The notes beneath the pieces were generated by a model. That model saw only the letters and a list, made by a program, of their open reading frames with translations, had not been told where the DNA came from and did no database searches. Positions 29,665-62,716 of a stretch of DNA of 64,000 nucleotides are shown piece after piece. The DNA comes from Aurantiochytrium sp. KH105. Lineage: Eukaryota; Sar; Bigyra; Thraustochytrida; Thraustochytriidae. The stretch lies in contig BGKB01000189.1 of the NCBI GenBank assembly GCA_003116975.1, positions 20,584 through 84,583 on the forward strand, written 5' to 3'. Position 1 is the first letter of the stretch, and each line of letters begins with the position of its first letter. The position numbers and the translations under genes are program-made.

Positions 29665-29678
29665 TCATTGAGACGTTC

Positions 29679-40954: not shown

Positions 40955-43900
40955 ATGGCGGAGAACGAGGCCTTGCAGGCCGCCTCGCGACCCGAGACGG
41001 AAGAGGGACCGCGACGCAAACGGCGCTGGTACCGCGTTGATTCCCCTGCGGCCTGGGAACTTCGACAGCAAACAACAAACAATACCGAGCGCAAAGACGA
41101 TGACAAAGATGACAGTGTCGACGTCTTCACGAACGCTGATCACGATGACAAGAGCAGAGAGAGCCTACCTTTTATGCCGGGCCAGCTGGATGATGTACAA
41201 GATGCCCTTGAACTACCAAGTCTACACGAAGCAGCGCTCCTGGATTTGCTGCGTCGACGTTTTCTACAAGAGATACCTTGCACATGGATTGGGACTGTTT
41301 TGCTGAGCGTGAATCCGGGCAAGCCACTTCGCGGCCAGCAAGGCATCGGCGAAGACTACTTTGACATTTCGGCAAGTGGGCACCATCCATCGGGGAGCAT
41401 TGATGAGAGTTCCCACAATCTGGGGAATACCTCGGCAGCAGCAGCAGCAGCAGCAGCAACAGCAACAGCAGAAGGAAATCCAGGTCTCGAGTATCAAGGT
41501 CATGCAATGACGCGATCACCATCTTCCTCGGTCTCCTCCATGACCTCGATGGTTTCCACACTGTCCACGGCCGCAGTTTCTGCAATCAAGCCCCAGGCAC
41601 ACCTCGCTGGCGTCGCAGACCGTGCCTACGCCTCAATGTTAGCAGGGCCCACGAGACAAACACAGACCATCATGGTCAATGGTGAGAGCGGCGCCGGCAA
41701 GACAGAAGCCGCCAAATTCATCACGCGCTGTCTAGCGCGCAAATCGCGCAAGGCCCGCTCCGCTGCAGCAAAAGCCTCGAAAAGCAAGGTGGACAACTAT
41801 TTTGGCAAAATGGGTCTCGGCTCACCCACAACGCTCGGCCGCGGTGGACGCCGCGGCGCGCGAGGCGGACGCAATGCTCGCAGCTCGCGCGGGCTCGCCG
41901 CACTTTCACCCCGGCCTTCATCAATCGACAGCGAGATCGGATCCGCGGTCGAGGAGTTCATGATCTCCGTTTCGCCCGTTTTCGAAGCCTTTGGGAATGC
42001 CAAAACAGAAATCAATCATAACTCGAGTCGCTTTGGCAAGTTCCTCCAGCTCGACTATGACCGCGACGGCGTACTCATTGGCGCACAAACGCGTCACTTT
42101 CTGCTCGAGAAAACACGTGTTGTAGGCCATGCACCTCACCAACGCAACTTTCATGTCTTTTATCAGCTCCTGGCCGCAATTCACCATCACAACGAAAACG
42201 CCTCACAGGCAAGCCCTGCAAAATCAATAAAGAGGCGAGTCTCGGGAAGCGCCAGCGACGCAGATGGAGACGCAGATGCGGAGACAGAGGAGAATGATGC
42301 GGAACATGAGTTCACGCTCGGACCCGTGAGCGAGTCATACGCTTACCTTGAACCCAGCGCGGCATCTTGCAATGCTGCAGAAGCGAAAGTCGCCAGCACA
42401 AACCTTTTGTACGGCCAAGACGATGAAGCAAAGATGCAAGAGGTGTGCAAGGCGCTCGATGAGATTGGCGTGGACGTGAAACATCGCAAGTTCGTGTGGC
42501 GTACGCTCTTGTGCATTCTCGAGGTCGGAAATCTATCGTTCGTAGCTGCAGATCGAGGCCATGGGCTAGACGGCTGCAAGCTGGATCGCAACGGCGGCCG
42601 TGCAGCGGCAGCCGTCGAACGCGTTGCCCAATTCCTCGGTGTGGACATCGAGGACCTCGACAAGAACTTGTGCTTTCGCACAGTTTCCGCGGGCGGACCA
42701 AAGCGAACGTCGGTTCTTTTGCATCCACTGACGGCCGCCGAAGCGGTGGCGTCGCGCGACGGGCTGGCAAAGGCACTGTATACGGCGCTCTTTGACTTTG
42801 TGGTCAGCACGGTCAATCTGCGCATTAATGCCGGAAATGCCGAAAAACAAGTTGCTGCGTCAATCGGTCTGCTCGACGTTTTTGGATTCGAAATGGCGCA
42901 ACGCAACTCCTTCGAGCAGCTTTGCATGAACTACGCCAACGAAAAACTCCAGCACAAGTTCGAAAAGCATCTCGTTGCAATGGAACGGGCCTTCCTTGAG
43001 GATGAAGGCCTCGACGCCGATGCAGACATGACAACCTTTCACGATAGCAGCGCTGTCATTGCTGCAATTGAAGACAAATCCATCGGCATCTTTGCTGTGC
43101 TTGACGAAGCGAGCGCGCTTCATCTCGACGACGCTGCTTTCATTGCAGCGCTTCGTGGTAAATTGGAGCAGCAGTGCACCGACATCAATGCTACCGAAAC
43201 AGGCCAAGCGATCGTCGAGACGCCCCCTCAACAGGGTGCTCGTTCCTTCGTTGTGAGGCATCGCGCAGGTGACCTCGAGTACGATGTACGTGGTTTTGTC
43301 GAAAAAAATACCGACGCAATGCAAGCCGATGTGGCCGATATGCTTTTGCAAAGTCGGAACGCCTTTGTTGCTAGACTCGTGCAGGCATCCACGGCAAGTG
43401 CATCTGCGAACCTTACGTCCAGTACCGCAGCCGAGGATCTCAACCTCGCGGACGCCTTGCCCGCTGTCGGAGGACAAAGACATTCGCGTCGTATGGCGGT
43501 AGAGACGGGCAAAGCCGCGGAGAACTTTAAAGCTACGCGTACGATGGCATCCACCAAAACGATCTCGGCGCTCTTTCGCAAGCAGCTCAGCCACCTCGAC
43601 GAGGCAATGGACGCTGGCGCAGTGCATTTTGTTCGGTGTATCCGCCCATGTAACCTGCCTGCACGCGTGAACTTTGACGGAGCTCTTGTTCTTAACCAAT
43701 TGCACCACTTGTCGGTGCTAGAAATGGTTCGCTTTCGGCTACGTGGCTTTTGCGAGCGGCTTCCGCTCGAATCGTTTTTCATACGTTTCTGTGGACTCGC
43801 AGCCTCTAACGTCTGCATCCCCGATGGAGCGTCTGGTCTACGGCGCTCGGCTCTCAGCCTGCTTCGGCGATTATTCCCACTGGCCCAAGACGCATATCTC

Positions 43901-45811: not shown

Positions 45812-46273
45812 TGATCCATCCATTTCGCGGGGCACCATAATAGCTATTCCTCAGCTGCTTGCAGGGCGACTCTTCTCTGACCTTAAGATTACTATTTTAT
45901 TCCAAAGACACCGCTCGCTTGCAGCTCAACGCCAAAACACGAGCGCTCCGGCTGGCTGCGCTGCTCGTCGGAGCCCGCGGAGCATCCCAAGCAAATCACC
46001 CAAGTTGAAGGTGACCAGTAGGTAGCACTGCCGTAGGCTTGGGCTACTAGCATCTTTGCTCGGCGCAGCTCCAGCCATCACCCGGCAGAGCCTTGCTTGA
46101 GCAATGGGCTCCGAGTAAAGACAGAACTGGAGTCCAAGCTAGCGAGGGAGAGGGCTGCTGCGCGCGAGGGAGCGGGCTGGCGAGCTTACGAGTCGCTCGC
46201 ACGCGCGCACGCAGCGGGCGCTGGACATACACAGAGAGGCACGCGTACCTCGGGGCCGGAGAGGCGGTTGATC

Positions 46274-47977
46274 ATGTCAGGGTTCGCGAGCTCGGTGCTC
46301 CTGGGCGATCTGAATGATTTCATCTCGCCGTCGCAGGCGTGCGTGAACCCGATCTTCGCGGGCGACAAGGCCGGCGACGAGGGCGCAGGGAACAAGAACG
46401 CGGCAGAGGTAGAGAAACTAGGACTGCCCAAGATTGGCCTTCAGCTTGAGAATGACTTTGGGGCCGCGATGGACGTCGAGACGACAGATCCTACGCCAAA
46501 CGCCCCGGACCTTATCAAGACCTCCGCGCAAAAGACTGCTCAAGTTTCCTTGAGCGACTGCCTCGCGTGCAGCGGGTGCGTGACCTCGGCGGAGACGGTC
46601 CTTATTGAACAACAGAGCGCCGATGAGTTTGAACGCAAAGTTGCTTCGGGCCAGTTCGATGCTATCGTGGTCACTCTCTCAGCGCAGTCAAGAGCATCTC
46701 TTGCCGCGCACTTTGGCGTGAAGACCGCGACGGAGATCCAGGAGCGTGTTTCTACGTTCTTGCGTTCTCGCAAGCGCGTGTCTTTTGTTCTTGATGCGAC
46801 CGTGGCCGGAGACCTCGCTCTCATCGAGCAATCTCGTGAATTTATTCATCGCTATCGCTCGCAGCAGGGCAAAGAGGGAAGCCACCCCTGGGAGGCGCCA
46901 CCGACAAGTGCAGCTGTGAGCTGCACGACCATCAAAATGGACCCGACAGGTCCCACGCCAGAGGAAGTCGTTCACGGCGGAGAGGTTCGCCCAGGTGCGC
47001 TGACTCCTCTTTTGGCATCGGCATGTCCGGGCTGGATTTGCTATGCCGAAAAGTCATGCCCCGAGGCCATTCCGTATATTTCCACCACCAAGTCTCCGCA
47101 ACAAATTGCCGGGGCTCTCGTCAAAGATTGGGTCAGCAAGCAGACGGGCGTTGCGCCAGGTCGTATTTTGCACGCCACAGTGATGCCTTGCGCCGATAAA
47201 AAGCTCGAAGCTTCTCGAAATGACTTTTTTCGGGCCGAAGCCGACGCACGCGACGTGGACTGCGTGCTGACCACCACTGAACTTGCAAACATGATGGTAG
47301 AAGATGAAACCGATGAAGGCGACGTGGCGATGCTCGACGACGTGCACGAAGCAGGTTCGGGGCCACTCGCACGTCGCGTTGCGGACTCGCTAGCCTCGCT
47401 CTCGGAAGCTTCTGCCGTTGGCGTGAGTGCCGCGGACGGTGGATCAGGAGGCTACGTTGAGTACGTCTTTCGCACGGCTGCAAAGGAGCTATTTGGCGTT
47501 GACGTTCCGAGTGGGCCCTTGCCATTCAAACAAGGTCGCAATGCCGACATTCGAACCGTCGAGCTGCACGTCCAGGGTAAGCCAGCACTGCGTTTCGCCA
47601 CTGCGTATGGCTTTCGCAACATTCAGCAAATTGTGCGCCAACTCAAACGTGGCAAATGCAAGTACGACTATGTCGAAATCATGGCGTGCCCTGGTGGCTG
47701 TCTGAATGGAGGCGGCCAAGCCCGGCCCGAAGTTTCCGAGGTCGACATGGTCGTTTCAGAAGCCACCAAAGCCGCGGCTCAGCGCGAGCGTCTCGGTCAG
47801 GCTTCTGAGATCTTTCACTCACGTCCTGTGCGCGCCCCAGAGGACAATCCGCATGTTCAGGTGGTCTATCAAAACTATATTGGCGGCGAGCCTTTTGGAG
47901 AGGAGAGTCGCCGGCTATTGCACACACGGTATCACACTGTGCCCAAGCTAGAAAGTGGCCTCACGCAGTCGTGGTAA
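46274..47977 (+). CDS. NAR1: Cytosolic Fe-S cluster assembly factor NAR1 (iron-only hydrogenase-like)
   Basis: NAR1 links early and late steps of cytosolic/nuclear iron-sulfur assembly, with the CIA1-CIA2-MMS19 targeting complex. 567 aa from ATG 46274 (MSGFASSVLLGDLNDFISPSQACVNP). N-terminal cluster Cys residues are C23, C96, C99 and C102 (SLSDCLACSGCVTSAETV). The H-cluster-type Cys are present in ASACPGWICYAEKSCPE, HATVMPCADKKLEASRNDF and MACPGGCLNGGGQ. The C-terminus ends in Ser-Trp, as NAR1 proteins end in Trp. No hydrogenase activity is expected, as in other eukaryotic NAR1 proteins. The frame is open upstream without an ATG that fits. All ligand Cys are intact, so the gene looks functional. 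It lies 0.46 kb after the myosin gene on the same strand. Confidence 0.96.
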   Translation: MSGFASSVLLGDLNDFISPSQACVNPIFAGDKAGDEGAGNKNAAEVEKLGLPKIGLQLENDFGAAMDVETTDPTPNAPDLIKTSAQKTAQVSLSDCLACSGCVTSAETVLIEQQSADEFERKVASGQFDAIVVTLSAQSRASLAAHFGVKTATEIQERVSTFLRSRKRVSFVLDATVAGDLALIEQSREFIHRYRSQQGKEGSHPWEAPPTSAAVSCTTIKMDPTGPTPEEVVHGGEVRPGALTPLLASACPGWICYAEKSCPEAIPYISTTKSPQQIAGALVKDWVSKQTGVAPGRILHATVMPCADKKLEASRNDFFRAEADARDVDCVLTTTELANMMVEDETDEGDVAMLDDVHEAGSGPLARRVADSLASLSEASAVGVSAADGGSGGYVEYVFRTAAKELFGVDVPSGPLPFKQGRNADIRTVELHVQGKPALRFATAYGFRNIQQIVRQLKRGKCKYDYVEIMACPGGCLNGGGQARPEVSEVDMVVSEATKAAAQRERLGQASEIFHSRPVRAPEDNPHVQVVYQNYIGGEPFGEESRRLLHTRYHTVPKLESGLTQSW

Positions 47978-48137: not shown

Positions 48138-51100
48138 TCACCAACCTGGCCTTGAATGAGCCTCGTAGGACTCGTCGTTTGAGTCATCGTGCCCATAGAT
48201 GGAGAGCATCGGCCCGCGAGTCTCGTCAGAATCCTCGGGAAGAAAGATGTCCGAGACTGCTGAGAGACAGTACAAGTATCCAGTGACCGCAACACGTTTG
48301 GAAGTGAAGCGATATGCAAAGCAGCCGTGAGGACAGTGTCTCTTGCGAATGTGCTCGGGAATGACTTTTTCGCCCTGGAAGATGTAGCAAAACTCGACCT
48401 TGCGATCGTTCCCTGGTTCGAGGTTCTTGATGGTGACCTCTCTCCATCGATCCGCACTCTGAAGCTGGTCCATCGCCTCCTTGGGAAACTTGAAGGGGCC
48501 ATTGAAGCTGAATGCGTTTCCAATAGTGAGCGCAGAGGCCGCGACGAAGCGCAGGTTTGCGTCGAAATAGAGATATCCTCCAAAGTGCAAAAAGCGTCGA
48601 GCTGCATCTTCGTATCGTTGATTCTCGAGCCAATTTAGCGCGCCCGCGTTAAGACCATCGAGAGGATACGCCCAACAATAATAGCGGGCGCTATCCGGAA
48701 TGTACCAGTAGCGCTCAACAAACGGTTTTACTCTGTGGTCGGTGTTACGCAGGGTGACGGGAGATAGCGGACTCATTTTGCCGGTCAGCTTGGTGGTTTT
48801 CTCGGGCCCATTATGGTACACCGAGGCGAAGACATCAGGGCAAATGAACTCGTACAAGTTCTCGTCAAAGTTAAGATTGAGATTGAGTTGCTTGGTCGAG
48901 GCAATGCCGAAGGAACGCAACGACACAAAGGGGCTCTCGAGGGGTTTGTTGAAAGGCATTGCGCTTGTGGGGTCCACGACAATGCGGTTGACGTAATCGA
49001 TGAGTTCAAGGCCCCACTCTGATTCGCGACCGTGAATCAGATCCCACCACGTCGAGAGTTCTTCAAAGTTGAGAGTCTTTCTGATGCGCGCGCGACGCAC
49101 GTAGTCAACGAGGTCCACAATCGAGGATAAGACCACCATGGACGTGGGGTTGTTGTATTCGAGAGACCTCCAATCAGGTTCGTGCTCCAGCTTTTCTTGT
49201 AGCCCCGCAATATCATCAATTACGCGATCGATCTTATCGAGCTCTTCACAGAGTCTGTGTACTTTTTCAATGTCGAATTGGCCTCTACGCGGAAGGCACA
49301 GGCCCGGGCTTGCTCCTTGCTGCAAGTCATGAAGACTGACATGGGTTGTGCACGGAAGACCCCAGCACATGGCGTGAGATAACGCCAGCTGTCTCTCATG
49401 AAAGCCACGAAGTTGGACGCCAAGCTGACGAACGTAGAATCCGACGAGTTGGCGCGGATGGTCAATCTGAACGACGACAACGTCCGGCATTTGAGGATTT
49501 GCAAAAAACATGTCTGCCTCGGAGATGCTCACTTGTGTCCCACAGAGTCCCACAATCCGAAGCGCGTGACACTTGTTGACGAGACAGGCCGCCGACGTGA
49601 GCTTTTCTGCCGAAGCAAGGCGAAGCTCGCGCAAATTCACGGTCCAGTTTGTGAGCATTTGCAGATGCTCGTGCGTGAGAAAACTCAAGCCGAGTAGCGA
49701 AAGAGAACGCATGTATCGGCTGACCTGCATGGCAAACTTCTCCCACTCTTCCATTGGCTCAAAAGCATTCGTGAGAACATTGTCCAGATGGAGGCTGCGC
49801 AGCGAGGCGCCGCATCTCTTCATGAGGTTGACGAGGGGCTCGCTCTTAGTAATGGAAAGAAAGCTTCCTTTTCCTTGTATTTCTTTGTACTTTTCCCGGC
49901 ACAGGACATCGACAGAGAGATTAAGAGAACGAAGATTTCTGCACCGATCCGAAATTCGATCAAGCACATTCTCGGTGAGCAGCGGCAGATTGCGCAGACT
50001 GAGCCGGCGCAAGTTGTTCGAGGCACACCTGGCAATGTGATGGACACCGTCATCTCCAATCTTGACACAGCCGTCCAGCACCACGGAATGAAGTGTAATG
50101 CAGCGCACATCCTCGAAGGCTTTTAGTCCTTCGTCCGTGATTTGTACACAGAAACTGAGGTTGAGAATTTGCAAGTTTGGGCATTTGACCGAGATGAGCT
50201 CGAGGATAGTGTCATCGACGGTGACACAATCCATGAGCTCGAGAGAACGAATGCTTTTAAAAAGTATGCGACTGTCCAAGCGAGAAAAAGCGAGAGAGAA
50301 AACTCCGCCAGACACGTCAGCGCTGCTCGAAGGGACGCTGCGCGTGGTACGATTGCGCAGGAAGCAGCCTTTGACAACGTCAACGAGCTTTGACGGAGGC
50401 GGTCGGTCCTCCTTTGCCTCGAGCTTCCTCTGCACCACATGAAACGGTTTGCCTTCGAAAACGATTGAACCGCTGAGCTTTTTCAGAAAATGACGGAAAG
50501 CGCCATAAGAGTACTTGTTTGGCGAGTACCAAAGGAGCGAAAGTCCCAAGGTAAGCGGTGCAAGAAGGATTTTGATGACCCAATTTAGAGCGCTCAAGCT
50601 GTAACGCATGTACCAGCTCTGACTGGTTGTACGATCGTAGTCGAAAAAGTCTGTGAGTGCCTCGGCGGCCAGTGTGGATCCGATAGAGGACGTTGGCTGG
50701 TCTGCAGCCTCGGAAAAAGCGCTTTGAAAACCTTTATCGTCCGCGCGCAGCCCGGTCTCGAGATCCCCCTCTTGATCAAAGCCATTGTCGTAATTACCAG
50801 GCGCATCACTGTCGCGGCGACGATCGTTTCGGAGGTCATCGAGCGATTCAAGGGCGTCGACCACCGCGGTCTCTTTGTCGTTTCGAGGATCAAACACGAG
50901 ATGGCGAACAAGCTCAATGTTGCGCAGGCTTGGAATGTCGCGAAGGAGCAGAATTGCTTCGATGAACTGACGCGAAGCAGAGACAAGCGAGGTGACAAGC
51001 GCAAGCCAGTAAAGGAGCTCGAAATTGCCACCTTGGAAGATGAAGATGAAAATGACCTCGACGGCGATCTGCGGAATATCCTGGATGAGAAGCACAGCCG

Positions 51101-52328
51101 CGGTGAGGATGGACATTCTGGCAGCCTCAAAGTCAGCCTTTGCTTGAGTTGCGATGGGGTCTTTTACGGAGCTACCTGCAGACTGGCCAATGGAATTCTG
51201 TCCGAGCGTCTCGTTGATTTTGTAAGAACCCTTGACTAGGTCGTTGAAACCTGTGTTGGGCTCGATGATGGCGATGAGCACCCCGAAAAGGTACTTTTGG
51301 ACGCGACGTCTGTCGTTCCAATCCACCAAGGTATAGTCGGAGAGCCCAATGCCAAGGCGGAGGATAAAAGTAATGGCCAGCGCTGCGATGGACACGTGAA
51401 AGAGGGATTCCGCCGTTGTGCCGATGAGAGGGGCGAGCTGGGTTACGACAAAGATGATATCGGTGGCAATGTTCGTGGTCTCGAGAATCATATCAAAGAT
51501 GGCTCCGTAGGTGCGCAGGCGGCGGCGCTTCTCAAGCGAGTGCGGCAATGCGTAAGTATCTGGAACTGGAACGTCGTCCGAGTGCGCGGACGTCGCCTCG
51601 ATCGAGCTGACGAATCGCGATGGAAAGAAAGTCATGCCCACAAACCAGGCAAAGGACTCAAATAGGAACTTAAGCTGCCTCCATAAAATGGAAGTGCGCC
51701 AACTCATCGAGCCTTGCTTGGGCTTCGGATTCTTGCGCTTGTGAGCAAGTCTCATGATTTCAAAGTGCGAACTGGTGTGGTACTCGCGAAGGAATTCCAT
51801 TTTGATCATCATTCGGGAGATGATTTGCAGAAAGTCCTCAATGTCGCTAAGAAGTACTTCCATCATGCGGGTATCGATGTAACGCACTTGATCTGCTTGT
51901 GGATTGACCGAATCAAGTTCGTGATCAGCGCCGTTGCTAATGTAGTGGTCGAGGTTCGCTAGTCGCTGCCCAACGTCCACAACGGCCTGGACGAGGTCGG
52001 GGTCGTAGATGAACCTGCCTTCCTCGATGGCTGTGACATGGTCGTGCGTGAGGAATTGGCTCTTTTTCTTCTTGTCGGTCTCGCCGGCCGGAAAGGCGAA
52101 AGTCCTCTTTTCCTCTTTCAGCAGGGTCTTGGCCTTGTCGTTGTACCTGCAGATCTGATTCTTGGCGTCCTCGATGGCGGAGCCCGTGGTCTCGGCCGGC
52201 GGCCGGAGCAACTTCTTCTGGGCGATCTTCCAGAGTCTCTTCCCCGTGCTTTTCGGTTCGGCGCCCACGCTTGCATGGCTCGCGCGGCGCACGGGCGCGG
52301 GGCCCGCAGGGCCCGCGGGGCCCGTCAT
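48138..52328 (-). CDS. Multi-pass membrane leucine-rich-repeat protein, paralogue A of a tandem trio
   Basis: 1,396 aa from ATG 52328. Order of parts: Gly/Pro-Ala N-terminus, basic; conserved helical block at 92-190 (HDHVTAIEEGRFIYDP, VVDVGQRLANLDHYI, IDTRMMEVLLSDIEDFLQIIS); membrane block at about 270-462 with hydrophobic segments near 275-303, 309-330, 345-360, 405-432 and 436-462, plus one at 578-601. The fourth holds LLIQDIPQIAVEVIF, followed by LLLRDIPSL and RHLVF. Leucine-rich repeats of the FBXL/AMN1 cysteine-containing type span about 690-935 (CPNLQILNLSFCVQITDEGLKAF). A helical linker follows, then a C-terminal domain at 1125-1365 (LYEFICPDVF, RYWYIPDSARYYCWAYPL, RFLHFGGYLYFD, FNGPFKFP, HCPHGCFAYRF). 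No F-box, kinase or signal peptide is seen. Function unknown; no family recognised. It is the most divergent of the three. Confidence 0.85.
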   Translation of the reverse strand: MTGPAGPAGPAPVRRASHASVGAEPKSTGKRLWKIAQKKLLRPPAETTGSAIEDAKNQICRYNDKAKTLLKEEKRTFAFPAGETDKKKKSQFLTHDHVTAIEEGRFIYDPDLVQAVVDVGQRLANLDHYISNGADHELDSVNPQADQVRYIDTRMMEVLLSDIEDFLQIISRMMIKMEFLREYHTSSHFEIMRLAHKRKNPKPKQGSMSWRTSILWRQLKFLFESFAWFVGMTFFPSRFVSSIEATSAHSDDVPVPDTYALPHSLEKRRRLRTYGAIFDMILETTNIATDIIFVVTQLAPLIGTTAESLFHVSIAALAITFILRLGIGLSDYTLVDWNDRRRVQKYLFGVLIAIIEPNTGFNDLVKGSYKINETLGQNSIGQSAGSSVKDPIATQAKADFEAARMSILTAAVLLIQDIPQIAVEVIFIFIFQGGNFELLYWLALVTSLVSASRQFIEAILLLRDIPSLRNIELVRHLVFDPRNDKETAVVDALESLDDLRNDRRRDSDAPGNYDNGFDQEGDLETGLRADDKGFQSAFSEAADQPTSSIGSTLAAEALTDFFDYDRTTSQSWYMRYSLSALNWVIKILLAPLTLGLSLLWYSPNKYSYGAFRHFLKKLSGSIVFEGKPFHVVQRKLEAKEDRPPPSKLVDVVKGCFLRNRTTRSVPSSSADVSGGVFSLAFSRLDSRILFKSIRSLELMDCVTVDDTILELISVKCPNLQILNLSFCVQITDEGLKAFEDVRCITLHSVVLDGCVKIGDDGVHHIARCASNNLRRLSLRNLPLLTENVLDRISDRCRNLRSLNLSVDVLCREKYKEIQGKGSFLSITKSEPLVNLMKRCGASLRSLHLDNVLTNAFEPMEEWEKFAMQVSRYMRSLSLLGLSFLTHEHLQMLTNWTVNLRELRLASAEKLTSAACLVNKCHALRIVGLCGTQVSISEADMFFANPQMPDVVVVQIDHPRQLVGFYVRQLGVQLRGFHERQLALSHAMCWGLPCTTHVSLHDLQQGASPGLCLPRRGQFDIEKVHRLCEELDKIDRVIDDIAGLQEKLEHEPDWRSLEYNNPTSMVVLSSIVDLVDYVRRARIRKTLNFEELSTWWDLIHGRESEWGLELIDYVNRIVVDPTSAMPFNKPLESPFVSLRSFGIASTKQLNLNLNFDENLYEFICPDVFASVYHNGPEKTTKLTGKMSPLSPVTLRNTDHRVKPFVERYWYIPDSARYYCWAYPLDGLNAGALNWLENQRYEDAARRFLHFGGYLYFDANLRFVAASALTIGNAFSFNGPFKFPKEAMDQLQSADRWREVTIKNLEPGNDRKVEFCYIFQGEKVIPEHIRKRHCPHGCFAYRFTSKRVAVTGYLYCLSAVSDIFLPEDSDETRGPMLSIYGHDDSNDESYEAHSRPGW

Positions 52329-53057
52329 GCTCTCCGCCCGCCGCTTCGCCGACCTCGTCCGTCACCAGCCAGGTGCGATCGAGCGATAGAGCAGCAATTC
52401 CCGGTCTGCCGAGGGCGGGGTTGGAGCGCTGCGCGTGCCTCTTGCTTGCACGCCTCGCGTTATCGTGCCCCTTGCGGTTCGCGCCGCGGCCAGTGTGCAC
52501 GCCGGTACGTACGAACAGGACGCTTGCTTCCAACGACAGCCGCGCTCCGAGCAACAGCTGCGCTCCGAGCAACAGCTGCGCTCCGAGCAGCAGCTGCGCC
52601 ACGAGCAGCTGCTGCAGCTGCGCTCCGCAGCACGTTGCGGCGCTCTCGTCGCTCTCGTCGCGAGCCTGGCGCCGTGCCGCGAGCTGCAGCTGCACTGCCC
52701 GCCGCGTCTCGACGCGAGCGCGACCGCGAAGGCCCGGCAGCGCGTGCAGCGCGTGCACCGCGCGTGCAGCTAACTGTAAGTGGACAGATGAATGAGATGG
52801 AATCGAAGGCGGCCACGCGGCTTGCGCGCGCGGAGGGATGGAGGTCGGGAGGTTGGGGCGGTGTGGAGGGCGGGAAGGCACGCGACGCGATGCGATGCGA
52901 TGCGATGTGATGCGATCTAGAGTGCAATCAACAATGAACATAAACTTTATCAAAACGGAAAAAAGGTTACGGCGAAAGGTGGGAGGGGGAAGGGGTACGG
53001 GAACCTCTTGCTCGCCAAGCCAGACAGGCAGACACTGGTGAGTGCACTCGATTAAGA
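52329..53057. other. Spacer between paralogues A and B
   Basis: A GC-rich 0.73-kb spacer with 18-bp repeats at 52543-52614 and CAGCTG/CTGCAG clusters, then (GATGC)n at about 52888-52915. It must hold the promoter of paralogue A and the 3' end of paralogue B. Overlapping frames are Ala/Arg-rich and judged spurious. Confidence 0.55.
52543..52614. repeat. 18-bp tandem repeat upstream of paralogue A
   Basis: Four units of CGCTCCGAGCAACAGCTG (the last degenerate), rich in CAGCTG E-box-like palindromes, lie about 215-285 bp upstream of the paralogue A start codon. Confidence 0.85.
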
Positions 53058-56000
53058 TCAAGGCTGGGGATAGTCGTCCTCTGAATCATCGTCGGCACCG
53101 CTTGAGGTGTCGGAAATTCGGCGGGATCCCTTGTCAGCAAGATCATCTGCACGAAGGAAGACGTCCGTAACGGTAGCGAGTGGGTAAAAGTACCCAAAAC
53201 ACGTTTCCTCTTCACCACCTTTGGGCTGGAACTTGTATGCAAAGCACCCGTGGGGGCACAGATGCCGAGCAGACTTGACGTACTTGGAAATCTCACCGTT
53301 GTGGATGAAACAAAAGTGCATGCGCTCTGCATCATCGGGCAATAGCGTTTTGATTGAAACTGGCTGCCAGCGCTTATCTTTCCGGAGTTTTTGGATTGAA
53401 TCGTTGGGGAGCTTGAATGGACCATTGAAAGCAAGCGTGGTTCCTACGGTCAGAGCTGAAGCCGAGACAAACTGACGATTCTCGTCGAAGTAGAGGAAGC
53501 CACCGAAGCGGATAAAACGAAGGACCGTGTCCTCGTACCGCTGATTACCAAAATAGCCGGATACTTCCCTTTTACGATCGGAATCGTTGGTTCCAATATC
53601 TTCAAAACAGCGAAGTGGATTTGCCCAGCAAAAGTACCGGGCACTGGGAGGGATGCACCAGTAGCGCTGCAGCAAGCGCGTGATCTCTGAGTCTGGGTTT
53701 CTGACAGAAAGAGGCCAGAGGTCACTGATGGTACCCGTGAGCCTTGTAGGGGCCTTGGCAGCTTCGATTTTTGTGAAGGCCTCATTGAATGCGTCAGGAC
53801 AGATGAACTCGTACCACTTCCAGCGAATGTTGATGTTGAGGTTGAGACGCCGCGTTGGCATGATACCGAAGGAAGGCATCGCCACGAATGGGCTCTTTTC
53901 ATTTTCCAACGCGTAGACTTCACTGAATTGTCCCTTCGTCTCATACTCGTGCAAAGCATCTTCGATTTTTTGAAGAAGTTCTTGCATTGAGTCCAATTCA
54001 CGATCTTGAAATTCTTTCGCCCATTCGTGGTACTCCGTCTCTGAAAGGGTATGCCGCGCACGAGCTCGCCGCACGGCTTCTACGAGGGCCACAATGAGCG
54101 ACTCGAAGATCGTGGTCGTTTCATCGCGCTGGAGTTGCGCATTACATGTGGCACGATGTTGGTCCGTGCCATCGACAAACCACCCATGCAGTTTCTTCGC
54201 AATATCTCGGATGTCATTCATGAGGTCTTCTCCCCCAAAATCATCTGCGTTAGAGTCCTGCGTGCTGGCTCTTCCAGCACGAGAGAGGCAAAGAGACAGC
54301 ATGCTTGAGCATTTGTGATCCCGCGCTCTGCTCAGGTTCTCGTATGCATCGAGCTGCTCTTCAAGTTGCAGCACGTAGAATTTGATCATTTCTTGAGGAT
54401 GATCAACTTGCATTACTTGTAAGTCGGGCAGCCTACGCGAGAGCATAAAGTCATCGACGTCGCCAAGAGGCACCTGAGATCCGGACAAATTTACCAGCTT
54501 AAGTGCGTGACAGTGCATCTTGAGGCACTTTGCATTTTTGATATTCTTTGCGCCAGATATACGTAGCTCGCGCAAATGCGGAGTGTGCTCGGCCAGATAT
54601 TTCAAAAAGTCCGTCTTGATCCATGTTGCGCCTGAAAAGGAAAGACGGCGGATGTAGGGATTCATGGCGCCGATCAAATTCTTCCAGTTCGTTTTCCCAA
54701 ATTCTCCCTCATTGAGAATGTTACTTAGCTTGAGTGTGTGAAGTGAAGAGCATCGTTGCACGAGCCCAACGAGTTTTTGGAAGTTCTCCTCTGTGGCAAT
54801 GTCAAGAAAGTGATGCTTGTCATCGAGTGATTTTTGCTTTTCCCAAGTTGGGGTACTGACGAGATTTTTGATCAAAGTGTCGACGTCGAGGTTGAGAGAT
54901 CTCATATTTGGGCAGTGCCAACCAATGCGATCGAGGACTTTCGGTGTGAGCCTAGGAAGGTTGCGCAGACTCAGAACCCTGAGGCTCTTTCCAGAGCCCT
55001 CGGCGATGCAAGCGACGCCTCTGTCCGAGACGCGAATGCAACCATCAAGGATGACCGAGGAAAGGGCAACGCACCTGTGGTTGCTCTTACTGAAATGCTC
55101 GAGACCCGTATTCGAGATGTCGTCGCAAAAGGCGAGATTCAAATTCTGCAAGTTGGGACACATGGCAGAGATGAGTCCCAAAATGTCATCCGTGATGCTC
55201 ACACAATCTGTGAGGTGGACGGATCGAATGCTGCGAAAGAGCGTGCGGCTGTCCATACGGCAAAAAAGAGGCCGGAAAAAGAGTCCCTTGGAAATCTTTC
55301 GATTCTCCATGCTTGGAGTAGAGCGCGAGCATGGGTGCATCATGGTTTTGAGCACTGGAAAGTGGTCCTTTTCAAATGGTTTGCCCTCGAAGACCACAAG
55401 ACGGCTCAGCTTGTCGCGAAAGTGGCTATTCGCGTTCCACGACGCAGTGTTTGGTGTTTCCCATAGTATGGAAAATCCCGCTGTCAATGGGATCATCAAG
55501 ATCTTGACGAGCCAATTGAGACCGAACAACATGACGTACGTTCCGGGATCCTGCTTGTTCGTGCGATCGAAATCAAAAAATTCCGTCAAGGCCTTGGAAA
55601 TCAGTCTTTGACCACCGAAAAATTTGGGTTTGATTTTCTCGGGAGAACCGTCGTCCGCATCCAGCTTTCGGCCCTTTTCATCGTGATGAACGTTTGATTT
55701 TTCCGCACGAGTGTCGAAAATCTCGGCGCCACGACTACCATGGTCCGCATCTGCCCCATCAAAATTCTTTTTGTTGCGACAGAGCTTGATATCAATGTCA
55801 CAATTCGAATTGAAGACGAGATGACGTAAATGAACGAGGTTGCGGAGACCTGGAATGTCGCGAAGGAGCCAGATTGCCTCAATGATCTGTCGCCCGGCTG
55901 AGAGGAGAGAAGTGCAAAGCGCGAGCCAGTACACATATTCGAAATGTCCATGCTGGAAGTTCGAGATGAAGATAATCTCAACGACAATCTGCGGAATATC

Positions 56001-57521
56001 CTGAATGAGCAGGACCAAGGCGGTAAAGATGGCCATCTTGGCGGCTTTGTAATCCGCCTTGGCCTGAGTAGCAATTGGATCCTTGACAAAAGTACCCTCT
56101 GCATCGCCAATGATATTGTAGCTCAGGGACTCTTTGATCCTGTACGACTCTTTAACGAGGTCGTTGAAGCCCGCGTTGGGCTCAATGAGTCCCAGGATGA
56201 TGCCAAAGAAGTACTTTTGCACCCGGTGGTGATTTTTCCAGTCGACAAGCTTGTAGTCTGAGATTCCGATCAAGAAGCGTAGAAAGAAAGTGAGAGCGAG
56301 GGCGCTAATGGAAACAAAGTACAGCGGGGCATCGGAAGTACCAGCGAGAGGAGCGAGTTGGGTGACGAGGAAGATGAGATCAGACGCAATGTTGGATATT
56401 TCGAGAACGGCATCAAAAAAGGCCCCGTAGGCGCGCAGACGACGACGCTTCTCGAATGTATGCGGAAGTGTGTAGTTGCGTGGGGCAACGTGACCAAACT
56501 CTTTGTCAATCCATTTTTTGAAAGCAGCTGGAAACATGTTCATGGCAACGAACCAGCCGAGAGCCCTGAAGCTGTAGAGGACTTGGCCACCGACTGCAGA
56601 GCACGCCTTGCGGCGTCGCTTTCTTCTCACGGGCCTCTTTCCAGCGCCAGCAAGACGCCTTCCTTCGATATCTTCTTCTTTTAGGCCTTGCTGAGCTATT
56701 ACTCGGCGTTTCTGAGCTTGACGTCTCTTTTGTACCGTTTTCATGATCTCGACGTGTCTGCTTGAATAACACTCGCGCAGAAACTCCATTTTGTTGGTCA
56801 TTTTGGAAATGACTTGAAGAAAGTCCTCGATGTCGCTGAGCAAGGCTTCTGTCATGCGGCTGTTGATGAAGCGCACGTGATTTTTTTGCGGGTGAGGTTT
56901 CGCGTCTGACAGATTCGCATCTGCATCGTCACTCGAAGAAACACTTTTTGAGTGCCCGCGATTGTTTTCACTTGTACCGTCACTCAAAGAATCACTAATG
57001 TAATGATCCAGGTTTGTAAGACGTTGCCCAATGTCCACCACGGCTTCTACGAGCGCGGGGTCGTATACGAACGTCCCTTCCTCGATAGCCTTGACGTGCT
57101 CATGGGTGAAGAAGGGTTTTTGCCTTTCAATACTGTCTTTTTCTCTTTGACCGAATTTTTTCCGAAGCTTTGTCGTTCCCGAGGGAGGTGTGCCTTGCCT
57201 TTCCACGAGATCTTTGGCTTTCTTATCTGCACTTTTTCGTACAATTTTGACTTTATCAAGCACACTCTGATCATTCAGTTGATTCTCGTCGTAGAGTGTA
57301 TCCACTGTCCAAGGATTCTTCTTTGTGTCATCCTCCTCCAAATCAACGTTTTGGTACGACCAGGTTTCATCACTGAAATGAGACAAGGCCTCTGGATCGT
57401 TTTTCTTAGGGGTGAAGGTGCTGCGTGTCGTGCCACGTTCAATATCGTGGCTGCCGGTCCCGGAACGATTGGTTTCGCGACCGCCTGACTTGCCTTTACG
57501 ATGGGAAAAGACGTTGCCCAT
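53058..57521 (-). CDS. Multi-pass membrane leucine-rich-repeat protein, paralogue B of a tandem trio
   Basis: 1,487 aa from ATG 57521; the frame continues upstream only to a TTG. It begins MGNVFSHRKGKSGG: Gly2 and Ser6 fit an N-myristoylation signal, followed by basic residues. The conserved helical block lies near 135-280 (FFTHEHVKAIEEGTFVYDPALVEAVVDIGQRLTNLDHYISD), interrupted by a Ser/Asp-rich insert. The membrane block is at about 360-575 (AFFDAVLEISNIASDLIFLVTQL; GLIEPNAGFNDLVKESYRI; DPIATQAKADYKAAK; LLIQDIPQIVVEIIF). LRRs of FBXL type are at about 760-1025 (CPNLQNLNLAFCDDISNTGLEHF; SSVILDGCIRVSDRGVACIAE). The C-terminal domain is at about 1230-1475 (WYEFICPDAF; RYWCIPPSARYFCWANPL; RFIRFGGFLYFD; FNGPFKLP; LCPHGCFAYKF). 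An acidic tail ends the protein. Closest to paralogue C. Function unknown. Confidence 0.86.
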   Translation of the reverse strand: MGNVFSHRKGKSGGRETNRSGTGSHDIERGTTRSTFTPKKNDPEALSHFSDETWSYQNVDLEEDDTKKNPWTVDTLYDENQLNDQSVLDKVKIVRKSADKKAKDLVERQGTPPSGTTKLRKKFGQREKDSIERQKPFFTHEHVKAIEEGTFVYDPALVEAVVDIGQRLTNLDHYISDSLSDGTSENNRGHSKSVSSSDDADANLSDAKPHPQKNHVRFINSRMTEALLSDIEDFLQVISKMTNKMEFLRECYSSRHVEIMKTVQKRRQAQKRRVIAQQGLKEEDIEGRRLAGAGKRPVRRKRRRKACSAVGGQVLYSFRALGWFVAMNMFPAAFKKWIDKEFGHVAPRNYTLPHTFEKRRRLRAYGAFFDAVLEISNIASDLIFLVTQLAPLAGTSDAPLYFVSISALALTFFLRFLIGISDYKLVDWKNHHRVQKYFFGIILGLIEPNAGFNDLVKESYRIKESLSYNIIGDAEGTFVKDPIATQAKADYKAAKMAIFTALVLLIQDIPQIVVEIIFISNFQHGHFEYVYWLALCTSLLSAGRQIIEAIWLLRDIPGLRNLVHLRHLVFNSNCDIDIKLCRNKKNFDGADADHGSRGAEIFDTRAEKSNVHHDEKGRKLDADDGSPEKIKPKFFGGQRLISKALTEFFDFDRTNKQDPGTYVMLFGLNWLVKILMIPLTAGFSILWETPNTASWNANSHFRDKLSRLVVFEGKPFEKDHFPVLKTMMHPCSRSTPSMENRKISKGLFFRPLFCRMDSRTLFRSIRSVHLTDCVSITDDILGLISAMCPNLQNLNLAFCDDISNTGLEHFSKSNHRCVALSSVILDGCIRVSDRGVACIAEGSGKSLRVLSLRNLPRLTPKVLDRIGWHCPNMRSLNLDVDTLIKNLVSTPTWEKQKSLDDKHHFLDIATEENFQKLVGLVQRCSSLHTLKLSNILNEGEFGKTNWKNLIGAMNPYIRRLSFSGATWIKTDFLKYLAEHTPHLRELRISGAKNIKNAKCLKMHCHALKLVNLSGSQVPLGDVDDFMLSRRLPDLQVMQVDHPQEMIKFYVLQLEEQLDAYENLSRARDHKCSSMLSLCLSRAGRASTQDSNADDFGGEDLMNDIRDIAKKLHGWFVDGTDQHRATCNAQLQRDETTTIFESLIVALVEAVRRARARHTLSETEYHEWAKEFQDRELDSMQELLQKIEDALHEYETKGQFSEVYALENEKSPFVAMPSFGIMPTRRLNLNINIRWKWYEFICPDAFNEAFTKIEAAKAPTRLTGTISDLWPLSVRNPDSEITRLLQRYWCIPPSARYFCWANPLRCFEDIGTNDSDRKREVSGYFGNQRYEDTVLRFIRFGGFLYFDENRQFVSASALTVGTTLAFNGPFKLPNDSIQKLRKDKRWQPVSIKTLLPDDAERMHFCFIHNGEISKYVKSARHLCPHGCFAYKFQPKGGEEETCFGYFYPLATVTDVFLRADDLADKGSRRISDTSSGADDDSEDDYPQP

Positions 57522-58429
57522 CTTCTTGCTTCTTCTTCTCTTCTTCCCCCTTCCTTGCCTGATAAAGCCCTTCTTCCCACCTTCCTTGCTCCGCGCGTCG
57601 GCCGCGACTCTTTCCGCGTCGCTTTTGCGCTCCTCTTCGAGCTGCCTCGTCCACGTCAATCAATTGTGCGCCAGCGACCGAACGAACGCTCGGCCGTTGG
57701 TCCTGCTGCTAGCCTTTCCAGCGAAGCCGGTCTGCCGCCGGCCGCGGGAGCTCTCGTACGTCCGTGCCAGGCAGGCCAGACTAGGCCAGACCAGGCCAGA
57801 CCAGGCCCTCGCCCGTCCCCCTTTTTCGCGCGCGCGCAAGGGTTTGTGGCTGTCGCGGTGCTGCTCCTGGCTGCTTTGCTGTTCGTGGGCGTGTGCACGG
57901 GCCACACACTCAAAAACGCTCTGCACGCGCCGCGCGAATAACGTCCTGCATACCCCTTGTTGCCCCTGCTTCCTTCGAAGTTTGCACCCGCTGTGGGAGG
58001 TAGGGAGGAAACGAAGACGAAGATGAAGACGACCGCGCAAAGCAGGACCGCTGCAGCAAGATCGCGGACTCGGACGATGCCTTGGAGAGCGACAGCCTGG
58101 AGGGGGAGAGGGGGGGGAGCGAGGGCGGAGATACGAGGGGGGGGTGGGGAAGGATGGGAAAGGGGGGGGGGGGAGAGTGAGATGTATTTTAGAGAAAGTC
58201 ATGAACTCGACATTCGGTTGGGGTGTCCGAACACTAGGCAGAGGGGGGAAAGTGAAAAACTTTCGCCAAAATGTCAAAATGCAAGAATTTGGCTGGATAC
58301 GAACAACAAAAACAGATCATTATAATAATATATCGAGAATGACGCTTCAGTACGGTCGTTGTCAAATTCTGAATTCTTCGCCTCGTTCGTCTCAGGATTC
58401 TACATAAGTCCCACTCTCGGGGATTCGGC
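57522..58429. other. Spacer between paralogues B and C
   Basis: 0.9 kb without a supported gene: basic/Lys-rich open continuation of paralogue B to 57659 from a TTG only; CCAGGCCAGA-type repeats at about 57768-57803; several G-runs at 58095-58175; more AT-rich DNA at 58250-58400. It presumably holds the paralogue B promoter and paralogue C 3' end. Confidence 0.5.
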
Positions 58430-61400
58430 CTAAGCATTGAAATCGTCATCTCGGTCATAATCTGACGCGTCTTCGTGATAATCTGACGCGTCTTCGTGAT
58501 AATCTGACGCGTCTTCGTGATAATCTGACGCGTCTCCGTGGTCATCTGACGCATCTTCGTGGTCATCTAACGCGTCTCCGTGGTCCTTTTTGTCGGGCGC
58601 GTCTTCTGTGCGGAGGAACACGTCTACGGCCGAAGCCAAAGGATAGAAGTAACTCTCCTTCGGACGACGATGATCTTTGAGAGTGAATCGATATGCAAAT
58701 CCCCCATGGGGGCAGTGACGTCGGATCTCTGGTGCAAGAACTTTCTCACCATGAAAGACAAAACAGAACTCCAGCTTTTTCGCGTCCTCGGGCTGAAGAC
58801 TTTGAATGGTAACGTCGTGCCAGCGCTTTTCAGCTTCAAGTTTGTCTACGGTCTTCTTGTTGAGCTTGAAAGGACCATTAAAGCTCAACGTCGTACCAAC
58901 TGTCAGCGCGGAGGCCGAGACAAAATGCCGGTTTGCATCAAAATAAAGGAAGCCTCCATAATGCAGGAAACGGCGCGTGGTGTCTTCGTAGCGCTGATGC
59001 TTGAACCAGTCGAGATTGGAAGCTTTTAGGTCGGTGAGCGGATTTGCCCAGCAAAAGTACCTTGCCTCTGGTGGAATGTGCCAGTAGCGCTCGAGAAGGC
59101 GCGACGCCTTAGTGTCGGGCGTTCTGACAGAAATGGGCCAGATCTTGCTGATCGTACCGGTGAGGCGAAAGGTTTTGATAGATCTTTCATTCTGCGATGA
59201 AACCGAGCCAACAGTGACTTGAGTTGCCTGGGAAACATCCGTGCCTCTTCCCGATTTATCCGCCGTGTTCCCAGATTCGCCTGTTAGATAAACATCGTCA
59301 AAGTCGTCTGGACAGATGAATTCGTAAATGTTCCAGCGAAAGTCAATCTTGAGATTCAGACGGCGCGTTGACATGATATCGAATGATGGGAGCGCTAAGA
59401 ATGGGGTTGACTTAGAGTCAGCAAGTGGCGCGTTGCGAAGCTCATTGAGCAGCGGCGCGACCTTTCTTGTAAATTTTATAATGAGATCCAATCCTTTACC
59501 CTTTACTCCACGCATTGCAGATAGAACATGTTGTGCTCGCTTTACGATCACGTTGCAGCGTTTAAGCTCAGATGCGGTACCCGTGAGTTTCTCCCATTCT
59601 TGATACTCATGAAAGCTAAGCATCATTCTCGCACGCACACGACGCACAAAATCTACCAGCGCCACGACATGCGACAAGATCTTCGTGGATGCAGCGTGGT
59701 CACTTTGAAGAAGCCCCCCTACATTGTGCTCTTGCATCCACTTAAGCAACGACCTGATGCTCTCAATGGCTTTCAGAGTATTTTCGTCCAGGCTGTTCGC
59801 CTCTCCAGCTCGGCAGCAGAGGGATAAAGGCGATCTGGGCGGCGCCAAAGCGCTGGCCTTGCGCTCGAGGGCCACGAGCTGTTCTTTGAGCTGCTTCCCG
59901 TAGAACGGGAAAAGCTGGGACGGGTGGTCGATCTGTACTACTTCGACGTCAGGCATCATTGGCGAAGCGAAGAAAGCGTCAGCATCGCTCATCGGGACCT
60001 GTGTTTCACTGAGATGGACCGCTCTCAAAGAATGACAGGATTTCAGCAAGCAGTGAGCAGATTCCAGCGAACGTACGCCTGAAAGGCGCAGCTCACGAAG
60101 AAAACGTGTCTTCTTGGCCAGAGACTTGAGTGACGCGTCTTTGAATGTGGCAGCGCCCGCGAGGGAAAGCGTGCGAAGGTAAGGGTTGATATTCTTCGCA
60201 AAATCTTCCCATCCAGTGAATTTCTTGCCGAGCACGTTGCTCAGCTTGAGTGTTTCCAGAGATGAGCAACGCTTCAACAGCTCAATGAGAAGTCCTGTAT
60301 CTTTGATCGATAGGAACTTGTACTTGTTATCATTCTCCTTGGCCAGTGTATCCTTGATCAAAAGATTAACATCGAGAGCGAGGAAACGCAGCCCAGTGCA
60401 GAACTTGGCAATAAACTCGAGGGCCTTTTCCCGGAGCAAAGGGAGATCACGCAGGCTGAGCCGCCACAAGTTCTTTCCCGAGCACTTTGCAATGTGGCGC
60501 ACACCCCGACTCGTGACTTCGATGCAGCCATCAAGGACGACTGAACCGAGTGCGATACACCTGTTGGTCTTGAAATACTTGAGCCCCTTGTCCGTGATCT
60601 TCGTGCAAAAACTGAGGTTAACGTTTTGCAAGTTCGGGCACATGCACGAGATGAGCTTGAGAATGTCGTCGGTGATGCTGATGCAGTCTGTAAGTTCCAC
60701 AGAGCGGATACTACGAAACAGCGTCTTGCTGTCCATACGGCCAAAGAGAGGGTCCATGAGGATGCTTGAGAGCCTAGAAGCGTCGCCGTCTTCGATAGAG
60801 CCCATGCAAGGCATGGATGGGCACGATATTGCTGACGATACTTTCTTCAGCAAGGTCTGACCCTCGTCAAAAGGCTTGCCTTCGGAAAGGACATGTCGAC
60901 TGATCTTCGAGCGAAAGTGGTGGTACGCGCTCCAAGAGGCGGCAAGTGAGCTCTTCCAGCTGAGCGAAATGCCAAATGTGAACGGGATCATGAGGATGTT
61001 TCTGAGCCAGCTCAAGCCCCACAGCAGGGCACGAGCGAATGAGTTCTGATTAGTTCGGCGATCGAACTTGAAAAACTCTGTCAGCGCTTTGGAGACGAGT
61101 CTTTCGCCGTAGTAGAACTCAACCGGCACATCGTCTCCGGAGTTATCGCCCTTGCTTTTTTCCATTGCTCCGAGAATTTTATAGTCAATGTCGTTGTTTG
61201 GGTTGAACACAAGGTGGCGGACCAGAATCAAGTTGTGCAGACCTGGAATGTCGCGAAGGAGAAAGACAGCCTCGATGAGCTGGCGGAAGGCAGACAGCAG
61301 AGAGGTGAGCAGCGCAAGCCAGTACACAAACTCAAACTCGCCGCCCTGAAAGACAATGATGAAGATGACTTCGACCACGATTTGCGGGATGTCCTGAATG

Positions 61401-62716
61401 AGAAGGACGATCGCGGTCCAGATCGACATATGAGCGGCCTTGTAGTCGGCTTTGGCCTGCGTAGAAATGGGGTCCTTGACGAAGCTTCCCACAGCGTCTC
61501 CAATAATGTTGTAGCTCAAAGACTCTTGGATTTTGAAGGACTCCTTGATGAAGTCGTTGAATCCGGAGTTGGGCTCAATGATGCCCAGCAGAACGCCAAA
61601 TACGTACATTCGACTTCGGTACGCGTCGTCCCAATCGACGAGCTTGTAATCCCAAAGACCGATTGCGAACCGCGCGGTGAATGTCAAGGTGAGGGCCGCG
61701 AGAGACACGTAGTACAAGTAGCCGTAGTCGCCCGCAGCAAGAGGCATGAGCTGCGTGACAAGGAAGAACAAATCTGAGACGATATTGGTGACTTCCAAAA
61801 TAGCGTCAAACGCCGATCCGTAGATGCGCAAGCGGCGTCTCTTCTCGATCGTGTGCGGCAGCGTGTAGAGACGAGGTGTGGCATGCTTGAACTTCCTATC
61901 CAAGGTCTCTTTGAAGATCGCGGGGAAGCTTTCAATTGCGTACCAGCGGAGATATGAGCTGACCTGCCTGACTTTTTGCGCGACTCTGCTGCACGTGCTC
62001 GTTGCTGTGAGCGAACTCGTGCTTTTCATCCTCATCTCCGCTTCACGTTCCCGGACACGAGCATCTTCCAGAATGGATACGTGTTTGCTTCTGTAGCACT
62101 CACGCAAGAACTCCATCTTGTTGATCATCTTGGAAATGATGTGAAGAAAGTCTTCCACATCGCTGAGGAGCACCTCGGTCATACGACTGTCAATGAAACG
62201 CACGCGGTCCTGTTGAGGGTGATCATCCTGTGAACTGAGGACCTTGAGACATTCGTGGTCATTGCTGTCGCTGACATAGTGATCAAGATTTGCGAGGCGC
62301 TGGCCCACATCAACGACCGCCTGGACGAGGGCAGGGTCGTAGAGAAAGTCCCCGTCCTCGATTGCCCTGACGTGATCGTGAGTGAAGAATGGCTTGGCCT
62401 TGTCTTCAGGGGCCAACTCTGCCGCTGGATTTTTTTGCTTTACGAGTCTGGTTGTGCCCGAAGGAAACGCGCCCTGACGCTGCACGAGCTTATCTGCTTG
62501 ACGCTTGCATTCGTCCTCCACGAGAACTAAGCTCTGGTACACGTCTTCGTCCTGTCTCAGTTTGCCCATCTTGACCTTTTTGCTCGTTTTCGGTCCGAGA
62601 CATCCGAAGCAAGTCTTGAACGTATTCTCGTCGGCGTTCTTATCGACTGTGATGGCGACATGATCTTCATCTACGCTTGTGCTCGGCGCTACGCGATCAT
62701 TCTTTCCACGAGGCAT
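58430..62716 (-). CDS. Multi-pass membrane leucine-rich-repeat protein, paralogue C of a tandem trio
   Basis: 1,428 aa from ATG 62716 (MPRGKNDRVAPSTSV); the frame continues upstream through repeat-coded sequence that I reject. A CFGCLGP motif near residue 35 could be palmitoylated. The conserved helical block lies at about 110-205 (FFTHDHVRAIEDGDFLYDPALVQAVVDVGQRLANLDHYVSD; IDSRMTEVLLSDVEDFLHIIS). The membrane block is at about 295-512 (AFDAILEVTNIVSDLFFLVTQL; GIIEPNSGFNDFIKESFKI; DPISTQAKADYKAAH; LLIQDIPQIVVEVIF; FLLRDIPGL). FBXL-type LRRs are at about 665-920 (CPNLQNVNLSFCTKITDKGLKYF). The C-terminal domain spans about 1120-1368 (NIYEFICPDDF; RYWHIPPEARYFCWANPL; RFLHYGGFLYFD; FNGPFKLN; HCPHGGFAYRF). 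The last 60 residues are an acidic 7-residue repeat. Function unknown. Confidence 0.86.
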   Translation of the reverse strand: MPRGKNDRVAPSTSVDEDHVAITVDKNADENTFKTCFGCLGPKTSKKVKMGKLRQDEDVYQSLVLVEDECKRQADKLVQRQGAFPSGTTRLVKQKNPAAELAPEDKAKPFFTHDHVRAIEDGDFLYDPALVQAVVDVGQRLANLDHYVSDSNDHECLKVLSSQDDHPQQDRVRFIDSRMTEVLLSDVEDFLHIISKMINKMEFLRECYRSKHVSILEDARVREREAEMRMKSTSSLTATSTCSRVAQKVRQVSSYLRWYAIESFPAIFKETLDRKFKHATPRLYTLPHTIEKRRRLRIYGSAFDAILEVTNIVSDLFFLVTQLMPLAAGDYGYLYYVSLAALTLTFTARFAIGLWDYKLVDWDDAYRSRMYVFGVLLGIIEPNSGFNDFIKESFKIQESLSYNIIGDAVGSFVKDPISTQAKADYKAAHMSIWTAIVLLIQDIPQIVVEVIFIIVFQGGEFEFVYWLALLTSLLSAFRQLIEAVFLLRDIPGLHNLILVRHLVFNPNNDIDYKILGAMEKSKGDNSGDDVPVEFYYGERLVSKALTEFFKFDRRTNQNSFARALLWGLSWLRNILMIPFTFGISLSWKSSLAASWSAYHHFRSKISRHVLSEGKPFDEGQTLLKKVSSAISCPSMPCMGSIEDGDASRLSSILMDPLFGRMDSKTLFRSIRSVELTDCISITDDILKLISCMCPNLQNVNLSFCTKITDKGLKYFKTNRCIALGSVVLDGCIEVTSRGVRHIAKCSGKNLWRLSLRDLPLLREKALEFIAKFCTGLRFLALDVNLLIKDTLAKENDNKYKFLSIKDTGLLIELLKRCSSLETLKLSNVLGKKFTGWEDFAKNINPYLRTLSLAGAATFKDASLKSLAKKTRFLRELRLSGVRSLESAHCLLKSCHSLRAVHLSETQVPMSDADAFFASPMMPDVEVVQIDHPSQLFPFYGKQLKEQLVALERKASALAPPRSPLSLCCRAGEANSLDENTLKAIESIRSLLKWMQEHNVGGLLQSDHAASTKILSHVVALVDFVRRVRARMMLSFHEYQEWEKLTGTASELKRCNVIVKRAQHVLSAMRGVKGKGLDLIIKFTRKVAPLLNELRNAPLADSKSTPFLALPSFDIMSTRRLNLKIDFRWNIYEFICPDDFDDVYLTGESGNTADKSGRGTDVSQATQVTVGSVSSQNERSIKTFRLTGTISKIWPISVRTPDTKASRLLERYWHIPPEARYFCWANPLTDLKASNLDWFKHQRYEDTTRRFLHYGGFLYFDANRHFVSASALTVGTTLSFNGPFKLNKKTVDKLEAEKRWHDVTIQSLQPEDAKKLEFCFVFHGEKVLAPEIRRHCPHGGFAYRFTLKDHRRPKESYFYPLASAVDVFLRTEDAPDKKDHGDALDDHEDASDDHGDASDYHEDASDYHEDASDYHEDASDYDRDDDFNA
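58457..58582 (-). repeat. In-frame 21-bp minisatellite, six units
   Basis: Six 21-bp units (ATAATCTGACGCGTCTTCGT on the plus strand, plus one base) encode the heptad-length repeat DASDYHE / DASDDHG at the extreme C-terminus of paralogue C. Units differ by a few substitutions, the right-hand units most. Confidence 0.95.

Follow-up and report, generated by a model that had tools for sequence, protein, structure and literature searches.

An array of large leucine-rich-repeat membrane proteins in Aurantiochytrium and the possible relation of their membrane block to XKR lipid scramblases

Three adjacent minus-strand genes, here A, B and C, lie in a 64,000-nt window of the Aurantiochytrium sp. KH105 genome (C189:20584-84583, where C189 is contig BGKB01000189.1), and each is one open frame whose product, a membrane protein of roughly 1,400 residues, belongs to an expanded family (Table 1). 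A first-pass annotation had described a tandem trio of 1,396, 1,487 and 1,428 codons; frames, lengths and adjacency stand, but the trio is incomplete, as it opens a tandem array in which eight copies point the same way (C189:68724-118976) and which extends to the right beyond the window. Over whole-length alignments, gene B is 45% and gene C 48% identical to gene A. The single architecture claimed for the trio is borne out by end-to-end alignment, and its domain order is fixed across the family: an N-terminal helical block, a membrane block, a linker, FBXL-type leucine-rich repeats (LRR), a helical linker and an alpha/beta C-terminal domain. This order is read from the sequence and, from the LRR onward, also from a fair structure model.

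Table 1 Features of genes A, B and C (window coordinates; residue numbers refer to gene A)
Feature	Gene A	Gene B	Gene C	Strand	Remark
Whole gene (array copies 1, 2 and 3)	48138-52328	53058-57521	58430-62716	-	Uninterrupted frames of 1,396, 1,487 and 1,428 codons; counterpart of gene C on C29 broken by stops
N-terminal helical block	51729-52067 (residues 88-200)	56718-57125	62045-62401	-	No convincing match
Membrane block	50874-51566 (residues 255-485)	55794-56486	61187-61879	-	Weakly resembles XKR N-terminal repeat
Stretch with XKR sequence signal	50937-51143 (residues 396-464)			-	AKADF...QDIPQ...TS...E457...D464, against XKR8 121-187
Linker	50289-50873 (residues 486-680)	55266-55793	60746-61186	-	One more hydrophobic segment
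FBXL-type LRR	49449-50288 (residues 681-960)	54390-55265	59915-60745	-	Bounds in B and C by alignment to A
Helical linker	48948-49448 (residues 961-1127)	53907-54389	59420-59914	-
Alpha/beta C-terminal domain	48213-48947 (residues 1128-1372)	53130-53906	58589-59419	-	No convincing match

A scan of the 76-Mb assembly (367 contigs) with gene A as the query located eight copies at C29:443918-488195 that match the C189 array one for one, and five further family sites on C92, C101, C80 (two) and C150. Because copy order agrees between C29 and C189, as does spacing except at a run of N, and because synonymous divergence (dS) ranges from 0.05 to 0.18 among the five pairs whose frames are intact on either contig, we infer that the two contigs represent two haplotypes. 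Of the 16 array copies, 13 consist of one unbroken reading frame. The interrupted ones (gene C on C29, C29:454195-458862; copy 5 on C189, C189:96966-101818; copy 8 on C29, C29:483985-488195) are each broken on one contig only, with an open counterpart on the other, and are null alleles or assembly errors, part of them perhaps the latter; the C101, C150 and second C80 copies are also interrupted. Adjoining the array end is a far diverged relative on the plus strand (C189:119651-123712 and C29:488948-492976), with 1,355 codons, the family layout and 26-28% identity to gene A over the N-terminal and membrane part. Long open reading frames (ORFs) to the right of the window, open in many frames, were set aside as an artefact of the run of N. 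Chance can be excluded as the origin of the family frames, because they span about 1,400 codons, because the gene A protein is 97% identical to its C29 copy, 45-51% identical to six proteins of Hondaea fermentalgiana and 97% to a seventh, and because substitution between the contigs is constrained, as described below.

A tree built from 22 protein rows and rooted at its midpoint, beside the plus-strand copy, groups the family rows of this genome together (93/98), as it does all of them except A (85/92, below the star level of the tool) and all except A and copy 8 (97/100). Within this last group, full support (100/100) unites gene B with a C80 copy and, separately, gene C with copies 4 and 5, a cluster that C80/C150 then joins (100/99); copies 6 and 7 fall with C92 and C101 (99/100), and the tree leaves the branching order of these three groups unsettled. 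Genes A, B and C form no clade (three label changes). The motifs SLSYNIIGDA, FFTH[ED]HV and ARYFCWANPL, which alignment confirms in B and C and finds changed in A, had suggested that A split first and B and C later. A does fall outside B and C, on a root that lies on long branches and, given the tool's warning that such branches meet, is less certain than the support values; B and C, however, are not sisters, given their fully supported groupings with other copies.

Public relatives were sought in a database of 5.8 billion proteins, with scoring limited to proteins that had short words in common with the query (in one search, to the 7,991 candidates listed), and those found are a lower bound. 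At least ten distinct homologues emerged: seven H. fermentalgiana records (P0004-P0010, named F-box/LRR-repeat protein 2, 7 or 15), two proteins of one 'lgn' contig (P0011 and P0012) and a 1,345-residue member on a 5.8-kb contig in a record labelled Durusdinium trenchii (P0013), possibly a thraustochytrid contaminant in a dinoflagellate record. This distribution lends no support to a stramenopile-wide spread. Among the Hondaea records, P0010 corresponds to gene A and P0009 to gene B; the 98% identity of P0010 to the C29 copy of A marks the present genome as that of a close relative or strain. In P0004, the second half is similar to gene C and to the near copies of that gene, and the first half to copy 6. 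The models of P0004, which at 2,265 amino acids spans two family copies and looks like two genes joined, and P0009, which lacks the N-terminal block, look faulty. The F-box/LRR names are automatic only, and PF27094, listed for P0004, was not returned by a Pfam scan of 11 members. No paper on the family was found among the listings of literature on XK-related (XKR) proteins in protists, stramenopiles, unicellular eukaryotes, plants or fungi, or on LRRs in thraustochytrids; the earlier suggestion of an undescribed family holds to that extent.

Block-by-block profile and structure searches gave a clear answer for the LRR, a weak XKR likeness for the membrane block and no convincing match for the N-terminal block or the C-terminal domain. 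Sequence and structure searches agree on FBXL-type LRRs, and only LRR Pfam families exceed their own cut-offs; the LRRs were also the only part recognised earlier. The solenoid is common to this family and FBXL proteins such as FBXL2 and FBXL17; unlike these, the family adds a membrane block and other domains, and no F-box family was detected at expectation values (E) up to 0.1 in 11 members. NCBIfam returned no family for A, B or C. Several weak matches were not adopted: for the N-terminal block, scattered hits such as eS1 ribosomal protein (E 0.038, PDB sequences) and, in Pfam, Tmemb_cc2 (E 0.013, one of 11 members) and GatC (two of 11); for the C-terminal domain, capsid VP1 (E 0.18) and SlipAM and NDUS4 (E 0.006, one of 13 each); and for the linker, DUF7322 (E 0.063, one of eight). 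As LRR matches fill the structure-comparison lists, we claim no new fold for the C-terminal domain. The extra hydrophobic segment of the linker is present in part of the copies, reaching the hydropathy threshold in six of 12 proteins; that threshold also misses span 1 of gene A, and sequons are not decisive on topology. Gene B begins with MGNVFS (57504-57521, minus strand), which looks like an N-myristoylation signal; genes A and C start otherwise.

Synonymous and nonsynonymous substitutions between the alleles indicate purifying selection: the genes are maintained as proteins, and selection is strongest in the membrane block. The ratio of nonsynonymous to synonymous divergence (dN/dS), from our own Nei-Gojobori script applied to the C29/C189 pairs open on both contigs, is 0.13 for A, 0.47 for B, 0.20 for copy 4, 0.08 for copy 6 and 0.27 for copy 7, in keeping with the selection that had been argued from the retained tandem copies; dS is saturated between A and B, B and C, and A and C. 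Pooled synonymous and nonsynonymous counts are 48.5:41.5 in the N-terminal block, 63:12 in the membrane block, 59.3:57.7 in the linker, 90.5:61.5 in the LRR, 35.3:64.7 in the helical linker and 75.5:43.5 in the C-terminal domain. The partial pairs C, 5 and 8 were kept out of the pool; in pair 8, the C29 ORF is out of register past its frame break, with inflated counts. Fisher tests on rounded counts distinguish the membrane block from the LRR (P 1.5e-4) and the C-terminal domain (P 0.002), and the LRR from the helical linker (P 1.9e-4), nearly half of whose replacements (31.7) come from gene B.

For the membrane block, the most promising comparison is with the XKR family (PF09815; XKR8, XKR9 and XKR4), whose scramblases the available parts of the literature describe in animals. 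In the accessible part of the XKR9 report, the protein comprises two related repeats, each with four spans and a partly inserted helix and with long loops inside; transmembrane helix (TM) 3 is kinked at a PQL motif, and acidic residues on TM1 and TM3 are typical of the family (PMC8298096). The modelled membrane block has four long and two short helices (mean predicted local distance difference test score 49.4), and structure comparison and sequence, including the weak Pfam match, point to the same protein in the same register, the N-terminal XKR repeat. In a profile comparison with XKR, none of 200 decoys reached the observed score; the block also ranked top among 297 ORFs. The likeness covers the helix order of that repeat, a PQ motif in span 3, a weak sequence match over XKR8 121-187 and perhaps, with the register of span 1 set by hand, acidic residues in spans 1 and 3. 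Across the family, P419-Q420 is followed by I, L or A, and E283, N286 and D290 (span 1), D417 (span 3) and E457 (span 4) are kept; the exceptions are the plus-strand copy, which has PL and lacks the span 1 acids, one broken-frame row in each case and, for the polar residues, gaps.

These signals are weak, and several observations count against reading them as kinship. Among the residues essential in XKR8 (D26, D30, R134, E137, E141 and R183, in the accessible part of PMC8500837), only one of six is kept in gene A: hhalign pairs Q416 with E141, V412 with E137, T409 with R134, L460 with R183 and E457 with D180, and the register of span 1, set by hand, pairs N286 with D26 and D290, the kept residue, with D30. 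D129, which the sources as available describe as salt-bridged to R98 and well conserved in the XK family, is unmatched, R404 standing there in the hhalign register. PF09815 scores only 10.7 and 10.6 bits in two of ten pieces (curated cut-off 24.8) and appears at E up to 10 in two of 12 proteins, equalled in frequency and strength by DUF6463 (two of 12, E 0.25). The structure model is poor, and XKR8 ranks only 12th in the structure comparison, with other helical proteins equal or higher. A PDB profile search lists no XKR protein up to E 10; its rhodopsin match (E 0.09), with span 3 as helix 6, covers part of one protein only and was rejected. Spans 1-2 alone are matched by 122 and 80 of 200 decoys, a forced global alignment to XKR is null (P 0.77), the match loses strength once the plus-strand copy is included (P 0.0013, 0.0033 and 0.0032), and with a large profile the best decoy scores 30.4 against 30.5 observed. 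Searches for a second XKR repeat were negative (C-repeat, P 0.44 and 0.49; linker block, P 0.85), and XKR proteins also differ in lacking the LRR, N-terminal helical block and C-terminal domain. No single XKR test is conclusive, yet the signals agree. The family misses several tested points of XKR membership, while its fold and some of its polar core may be common to both.

We lean, by a modest degree, towards a distant kinship between the membrane block and a single XKR repeat, that of the N-terminal domain in these lipid scramblases, a reading that is supported but not proven. That the block is instead a receptor or channel of unrelated fold, its likeness a chance product of polar spans round a PQ kink, is a real if lesser prospect: every XKR score falls under the usual cut-offs, rhodopsin tops the PDB search, spans 1-2 carry no sequence signal and the model has low confidence, but chance sits poorly with structure and sequence agreeing on protein and register, with the empty decoy count and with the rank among ORFs. 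The channel-like role suggested earlier gains no support; the XKR lead was absent from that proposal. Decay of the family, or frames that are not expressed, would fit the interrupted copies in the array and on C101, C150 and C80, and is very improbable given the preponderance of open array copies, the possibility that some breaks are assembly errors, the dN/dS values and the strongly constrained membrane block.

On this reading, the family would consist of half-XKR-like membrane proteins that carry an LRR and may act as regulated lipid scramblases, a role we put forward tentatively and at somewhat less than even chances. Were the topology like that of XKR proteins, the LRR and C-terminal domain would be cytosolic, as four spans would also imply unless the fifth hydrophobic segment traverses the membrane; there, binding of a partner or ligand to them might gate the membrane part, with lipid scrambling or another lipid-facing act as the output. 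The sensor role proposed earlier would fit such an arrangement. Since each XKR9 repeat has four spans, the two would be oriented alike, and half-domains paired as a homodimer could replace the two-repeat molecule. An XKR-like fold that does not scramble, anchoring an LRR signalling or scaffold module at the membrane or binding a lipid-transfer partner, seems rather unlikely; it would suit the single detected repeat, the five changed XKR8 path residues and the FBXL-type LRR, a fold of protein-binding adaptors, but a plain anchor would need none of E283, D290, D417 and E457, which are kept inside spans, and no other part is as constrained as the membrane block. As a long shot, the family could be a dimeric half-XKR scramblase in which a cytosolic LRR and C-terminal domain serve as the gating sensor, giving a picture of the stage that preceded doubling of the XKR repeat. 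The array would then vary the sensor side (LRR and helical linkers) while keeping the membrane engine constant.

A frozen membrane block beside faster LRR and linkers is the expectation for a sensor family with a shared output. A single XKR-like repeat joined to an LRR in a stramenopile family would, as far as the accessible literature goes, extend the fold far beyond animals, open the origin of the two-repeat scramblase to testing and offer a first functional idea for records named 'F-box/LRR'; the dimeric form would be a protist counterpart of animal scramblases. Searches of this genome with PF09815 and XKR8 were empty but lacked a working control, so that absence of canonical XKR proteins is not established. 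An XKR search of the protein database gave 517 matches, of which 120 were listed, with proteins of this length outside its reach, and scans with the membrane alignment gave 76 pattern stretches in viral and 47 in prokaryote contigs, none confirmed as a relative.

To the left of the array lie a gene with iron-hydrogenase domains (46097-47977), which we take to be Nar1-type, and a myosin gene (40523-45811). Pfam matches across window positions 10232-47977 comprise RCC1-like, TPR, IFT46, acyl-CoA dehydrogenase, NBR1-type Ig-like, C1-domain and CH-domain proteins, a sulfotransferase, a myosin head and an iron-hydrogenase-like protein, and a tRNA-Gln lies at 29593-29666.
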